A DNA stretch of 64,000 bases from Actinopolyspora xinjiangensis (GTDB lineage: Bacteria; Actinomycetota; Actinomycetes; Mycobacteriales; Pseudonocardiaceae): positions 1 through 64,000 of the forward strand of contig NZ_FNJR01000015.1 in the NCBI RefSeq assembly GCF_900104475.1, given 5' to 3'. The translations under genes and the position numbers were made by a program. Each line of letters starts with the position of its first letter. The first letter of the stretch is position 1. A model generated the notes under the pieces. It was not told the origin of the DNA. It made no database searches and saw nothing but the letters and a program-made list of their open reading frames with translations. Shown in pieces: positions 61 to 61,433 of this stretch.

Positions 61-179
61 GGTCGGTGGCCACAGCGGAGGAGACACGCCCGGACCCCAT
101 CCCGAACCCGGCAGCTAAGCCCTCCAGCGCCCCAGGTACTGCACCCCCACGGGTGTGGGAGACACGGACACCGCCGACC
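61..179 (+). rRNA. rrf: 5S ribosomal RNA
   Basis: The ends GGTCGGTGG (61-69) and CCGCCGACC (171-179) pair over nine bases with one G-T wobble, forming 5S helix I. Between them lies typical actinobacterial 5S sequence, including the CCCATCCCGAACCCGG loop region near 96-111. The length of about 119 nt is normal. The first 60 bases would be the 23S-5S spacer; the 23S gene itself lies upstream of the window. A strong hairpin follows at 192-223, so 5S ends the operon. Confidence 0.96.
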
Positions 180-30957: not shown

Positions 30958-31092
30958 CCTCCCGAGTGTTCCACGGTCGAGCGGTGGCGCCCCGAGTCCC
31001 GGCTGTACTGATCGTTCCGCGGGCGATGAGCCCTCTTCTGTCGGCGCTGTCGGTGGAGGAGTCAGTAATCCACGTATTCGTGGTTTTGTAAC

Positions 31093-31125
31093 TACTGCTA
31101 TTTCAGTGTTTACTGAAATAAAATC
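31093..31125. repeat. Three-copy intergenic element, copy 1
   Basis: It starts TACTG and has the core ATTTCAGTGTTTACTGAAAT, an 8-bp inverted repeat around GTTT. It aligns without gaps over about 27 bp to copies at 41721 and 61400. Here it lies between the GNAT gene (minus) and gltB (plus). Confidence 0.7.
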
Positions 31126-41720: not shown

Positions 41721-41754
41721 TACTGTGATTTCAGTGTTGAACGAAATTAAACTT
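41721..41754. repeat. Three-copy intergenic element, copy 2
   Basis: It starts TACTG and has the core ATTTCAGTGTTGAACGAAAT; the 3' arm is only partly complementary. It lies in an AT-rich patch (41711-41770) about 160 bp upstream of moxR and 55 bp after mobA. Confidence 0.7.
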
Positions 41755-61399: not shown

Positions 61400-61433
61400 G
61401 ACTGTCGTTTCAGTGCTGCACGAACACTACACA
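61400..61433. repeat. Three-copy intergenic element, copy 3
   Basis: It starts GACTG with the core GTTTCAGTGCTGCACGAAC. The TTTCAGTG core begins 8 bp after the element start, as in the copies at 31093 and 41721. It lies about 65 bp upstream of the terC promoter, in the gap after the UvrA-like gene. Confidence 0.65.

Follow-up and report, generated by a model that had tools for sequence, protein, structure and literature searches.

A putative polar replication fork trap around dif in Pseudonocardiaceae, with a MarR-like winged-helix protein as candidate binder

The short repeated element found in the stretch of DNA analysed here (the window, 64,000 nt, C27:1-64000 of its assembly) is, judging from sequence comparisons, very probably a Ter site, in other words a polar barrier to replication forks and part of a fork trap around dif, the site of dimer resolution. 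It consists of a polar motif of about 30 bp, CTGTnn-TTTCAGTGTTGAnYGAAA-TnAA, with about ten copies in an Actinopolyspora genome. The copies cluster around dif, which lies 23.8 kb beyond the window, and each of them reads from CTGT through the core to TnAA in the direction of dif. In complete genomes the strand of the copies switches once along the chromosome. One copy is followed immediately by the start of a gene for a MarR-like winged-helix protein of about 154-160 amino acids. This is probably the third chromosomal fork trap to have evolved independently and the first from Actinomycetota; it would occur in at least 21 genera of Pseudonocardiaceae and would have arisen by recruitment of a MarR-like autorepressor, with the operator of that repressor turning into a polar barrier. 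No earlier fork trap from Actinomycetota appeared among the open-licence papers listed, covered largely by titles and the beginnings of abstracts and without preprints, and none is described in passages from two actinobacterial papers.

The sequence ACTGNNNTTTCAGTGYTNNNNGAA was matched exactly at 31094, 41722 and 61401 of the window, all on the plus strand, compared with a mean of 0.04 matches expected by chance (100 dinucleotide shuffles), and no further copy was found in the window even with three mismatches. The earlier note had described an element in three copies with its parts at fixed offsets, and both descriptions were borne out. Site 1 (31092..31125, plus strand, core palindrome 31101-31118) is upstream of gltB at 56.7 kb from dif, scores 27.9 bits with the motif model R1, and contains the hairpin ATTTCAGT-GTTT-ACTGAAAT that had been reported for this copy; copies 2 and 3 are imperfect palindromes. 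Site 2 (41721..41752, plus strand, core 41729-41746) is upstream of moxR, 46.0 kb from dif, and scores 34.6 bits. Site 3 (61400..61425, plus strand, core 61408-61425), upstream of terC and 26.3 kb from dif, is the innermost left-arm site found and, with 19.2 bits, the weakest of the three in the window. The position of site 1 is kept in genomes G008 and G009, that of site 2 in other Actinopolyspora genomes, and that of site 3 in G003.

All three copies lie between genes, and the plus-strand open reading frames downstream match glutamate synthase, a MoxR-type AAA ATPase and TerC (Pfam), in agreement with the earlier note. Its observation that the copies sit in AT-rich patches applies to the first two, with a GC content of 0.29 and 0.31, but hardly to the third, with 0.52 (model-matched stretches). 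An RNA element was considered and rejected, Rfam at gathering scores giving only 5S rRNA in the window. The 5S rRNA gene is found at window positions 62-179, at the very start of the contig, and therefore an rRNA operon apparently lies about 88 kb from dif, near the replication terminus.

In the genome from which the window was taken (5.04 Mb, 33 contigs), the 18-bp core occurs at 10 places with up to three mismatches, and the backward pattern at one. With up to two mismatches, the core was present in 18 of 61 relative genomes; all ten genomes of the genus carry 4-8 core copies, and the backward pattern matched once across all 61 genomes. Both checks that had been proposed earlier gave a positive result, since matches throughout the genome exceed the reversed-pattern control and the sites are kept at orthologous positions within the genus Actinopolyspora. 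Accidental similarity, or the remains of a mobile element, might be thought of for copies so few and so short, yet this idea is contradicted by the shuffled expectation, by the single reversed-pattern match, by the conserved positions and by the polarity described below, and we consider it to have next to no probability.

The model R1 and the alignment A1 were built from 67 of 80 distinct sites, with 13 omitted as near duplicates, as having a shifted right end (two sites), as doubtful or as coming from distant genera. R1 finds sites in 24 of 36 family genomes, a comparison from which G020 (74% complete) was excluded, and genomes with sites have between 1 and 14 copies. The 83 sites that were fetched fall into 24 positional groups by the similarity of their flanks, and hence do not represent 83 independent events. 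When each group is represented by one site, conservation is seen in C/T-T-A/G-T at -6 to -3, in the core TTTCAGTGTTGA(A/C)(C/T)GAAA at 0-17, and in AA at 20-21. Conservation of the core is partly built in, because the core itself was used to find the sites; independent evidence comes from the conserved positions in the flanks. The core forms an imperfect palindrome, and an origin-side CTG, the mirror image of the CAG in its left half, makes the site as a whole asymmetric. In alignments the motif is retained at orthologous places, and next to it, further downstream, lies well-conserved sequence in which the promoters of gltB, moxR and terC may be located. At the place of the window's moxR site, two genomes have three sites of the same orientation within about 4 kb (G001:C1:1314345, 1314755 and 1318637; G002:C1:1232103, 1233362 and 1236013). 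A weak extra site of 14.6 bits was also seen at G000:C32:79618 (minus strand), 0.7 kb from a strong one and in the same orientation.

The position of dif was determined with a sequence pattern for this site. The pattern gave a single match in each of 17 of the 18 genomes and none in the control, and it agrees with the dif of Frankia (PMC3025954). Additional genomes were scanned with a shorter pattern; if this produced a second match with two mismatches, the exact match was taken. In single-contig genomes dnaA is located roughly opposite dif. Among the matches listed, all 105 sites that could be judged read towards dif (21 genomes, 12 genera); these are the ones on the dif contig out of at least 150 R1 matches, the other 45 being on contigs without dif and left unjudged. 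A hold-out set outside the training set comprised at least 66 sites in 34 genomes, with dif found in 32 of the 34 and 24 sites unjudged on contigs without dif. Again all 42 judgeable sites among the matches listed read towards dif (24 genomes, 9 genera, from some of which training sites had also come). For five sites of G025 and one of G101 the direction was read on the assumption that the record closes into a circle, and the lengths used for G025, G032 and the hold-out genomes were rounded.

For 59 sites in nine genomes treated as circles, the median distance to dif is 4.7% of half a chromosome, with the outer sites forming a tail of the distribution. The GC skew of G003 is positive as far as about 2.34 Mb and mostly negative from about 2.44 Mb on, and the mixed stretch in between falls inside the innermost sites at 2325678 (plus) and 2469949 (minus). 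The 11.8-Mb sequence G031:C1 also carries sites and the gene of the putative binder, and all six of the sites listed for it face away from the dnaA region; two dif patterns gave no match in G031. Several non-palindromic sites that flank the terminus and point to dif, the arrangement of a fork trap, are thus found among the judgeable matches listed.

All 83 fetched sites are intergenic according to a home-made codon-usage gene finder, which gives the regions as 76-79% coding. The downstream neighbour is on the same strand for 59 sites, on the opposite strand for 23, and was not found for one; ten sites lie between convergent genes. Genes left of dif are biased in direction (36 plus to 8 minus in G003), and therefore the left arm alone would prove little. 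Right of dif, genes show no bias (60 plus to 77 minus in G003, 48 plus to 51 minus in G000 C32), and all sites found there, in both genomes, are on the minus strand. Gene direction does not explain the polarity because 23 sites face no same-strand gene, and an exceptionless polarity over 24 groups and many genera does not follow from it.

These results bear on the possibility that the binder is no more than a common autoregulated repressor, with the sites as operators of its regulon and their polarity following from genes transcribed in the direction of replication. Resemblance to MarR regulators, the site in the protein's own promoter, the majority of sites with a same-strand gene downstream and the bias of left-arm genes would all fit with such a repressor. 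It is hard to keep, however, given that the sites with an opposite-strand gene in front still point at dif wherever this can be judged, that right-arm genes are unbiased, and that the 105 and 42 sites listed include no exception; we regard it as very improbable. A regulon made up of gltB, moxR and terC was rejected on the same grounds of polarity and gene context. From the earlier proposal, a binding-site family of one protein, distinct from a mobile element, is supported, but regulation of the neighbouring genes is not supported: orientation follows dif, and the sole site tied to a gene is the one before the gene of the putative binder itself.

That gene was identified from its position. In two family genomes a site lies a few bases 5' of the winged-helix gene start, and in every Actinopolyspora genome the gene follows the far site. 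Inspection by eye places the motif directly 5' of the gene in all 24 genomes, and the same is true for all 80 loci taken from named genomes, which represent the best 80 among 89 relatives. Using a matrix made without gene-proximal sites, each of the 80 loci outscores the best of 352 random stretches, although the lowest of the 80 scores are below the best opposite-strand score of the same near-palindromic stretches. Other candidates beside the paired C32 sites (a TetR-like gene and others) were dropped, because the far-site gene is the same winged-helix gene in all ten genomes of the genus. In the 14 genomes checked, the binder gene is always read in the direction of the fork.

The gene and the sites also occur together. 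Among 36 family genomes, strong orthologues (E < 1e-40) and sites were found in the same 24, and the remaining 12 had neither. Over 200 family genomes, with counts uncorrected for kinship and an orthologue defined by at least 225 bits (next matches at most 148 bits), 81 have gene and sites, 115 have neither, one (G118) has the gene and no site, and three have a single site without the gene, namely G020 (74% complete), G061 (86% complete) and G137 (E 0.06). The gene is present in every one of the 78 genomes that have at least two sites; 9 of the 82 gene-bearing genomes show fewer than three sites, including G118 with none. Gene and sites are found together in 21 genera. Some large gene-bearing genomes, G139, G140 and G170 among them, show only one or two sites with R1, and there either the motif has diverged or the array has been lost.

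Taken from these associations, the MarR-like winged-helix protein of about 160 amino acids likely binds the sites. All 40 orthologues match MarR_2 at E up to 0.1; the two proteins for which bits are given (24.2 and 19.5) are below the curated cut-off of 27. The nearest solved chain is 4nb5 (profile match with E 3.1e-27 over profile positions 6-144), a code that appears in papers on mmpR5/Rv0678 of Mycobacterium tuberculosis. RTP (PF02334) and Tus (PF05472) are absent from the 19 Pfam families matched by the 40 orthologues at E up to 0.1, and no RTP structure is among the 19 chains with E up to 1. The protein is thus like MarR-type regulators such as 4nb5 in its profile match, its MarR_2 matches and its putative autoregulatory palindrome, but its sites are arranged by replication polarity and not by target genes, and its orthologues form a group apart in bit score. 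Two distant homologues have palindromes of their own just upstream, TGCTAGTTGTGACTAGCA for L148 (G035:C38:38485-38502) and TTTCAGTTGTGACTGAAA for L149 (G040). In the G035 genome TGCTAGTTGTGACTAGCA occurs once, at the homologue's own gene, with no second copy at up to two mismatches; consequently no fork trap is claimed for G035, and putative autoregulation without a trap also occurs among more distant members of the family.

As a fork trap, the system would work as follows. A dimer of the MarR-like protein would occupy the imperfect palindrome TTTCAGT..../..AnYGAAA, and CTGT, an additional half-site towards the origin, would make the complex of protein and site asymmetric. Forks from oriC would meet the CTGT side first and pass, those that have gone past dif would meet the core side first and stop, and fusion of forks would occur between the innermost sites. 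The three copies in the window would be barriers of the left arm, stopping forks that escape leftward from the other arm. In RTP/Ter, according to PMC10331603, a fork that reaches the strong B site first is blocked and one that reaches the weak A site first can proceed, and by analogy the orientation of the sites described here agrees with this rule. The copy before the binder's own gene would provide autoregulation, as is reported for tus and rtp, each autoregulated through a ter site (PMC10331603).

Polarity and position are what sequence alone can give, and they would also suit sites that mark the terminus with polarity and do not stop forks, the MarR-like protein being a landmark that guides segregation, anchors the terminus or orients a translocase. 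We consider this unlikely. Translocase-orienting motifs such as KOPS/SRS are short and have very many copies along both arms, unlike the low number of copies of a site of about 30 bp seen here. The matS site of MatP is palindromic and has no consistent polarity, and a landmark of that type needs no strict orientation, whereas polarity is exceptionless in the sites judged here. Moreover, both known fork traps are built in this way, with a dedicated, autoregulated binder and a small number of sites spaced outwards (PMC10331603).

Compared with these two, the plan appears to be that of a fork trap and closest to RTP/Ter, with protein and sites apparently outside both known families. Shared with RTP/Ter of B. 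subtilis are a small DNA-binding protein (RTP has 14.5 kDa), asymmetric sites of about 30 bp that flank the terminus and point to dif, a strong core with a weaker auxiliary part, a site in the promoter of the terminator gene and, by analogy, forks that would be blocked when they meet the strong part first (PMC10331603, PMC3317982 and PMC6549158). The hosts are different, Actinomycetota here and a subgroup of Bacillales there, and the Bacillus Ter consensus has no match in the window at up to three mismatches. RTP is a winged-helix protein; none of the 40 orthologues has an RTP family match at E up to 0.1. With Tus/ter of E. coli the system has in common several oriented inner and outer sites around dif and the autoregulated terminator gene, autoregulation being putative here (PMC10331603 and PMC6549158). 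It differs in that Tus is a 36-kDa protein (PMC3317982). Tus also acts as a polar monomer, whereas the sites described here are palindrome-based, and the orthologues have no Tus family match; the E. coli ter consensus was matched nowhere in the window at up to three mismatches.

Two unrelated fork traps have been described; tus and rtp are confined to four clades, and the majority of bacteria are believed to lack a trap (PMC6549158). If true, a third trap, carried by a large family of halophiles and antibiotic producers, would add to the examples of convergent evolution and would show a route from a common type of repressor to a fork barrier. As about two fifths of the 200 family genomes have both gene and sites and the rest do not, the use of fork traps could be tested by comparing close relatives, and what fork traps are good for becomes a question that can be addressed in Pseudonocardiaceae with and without this gene and its sites.
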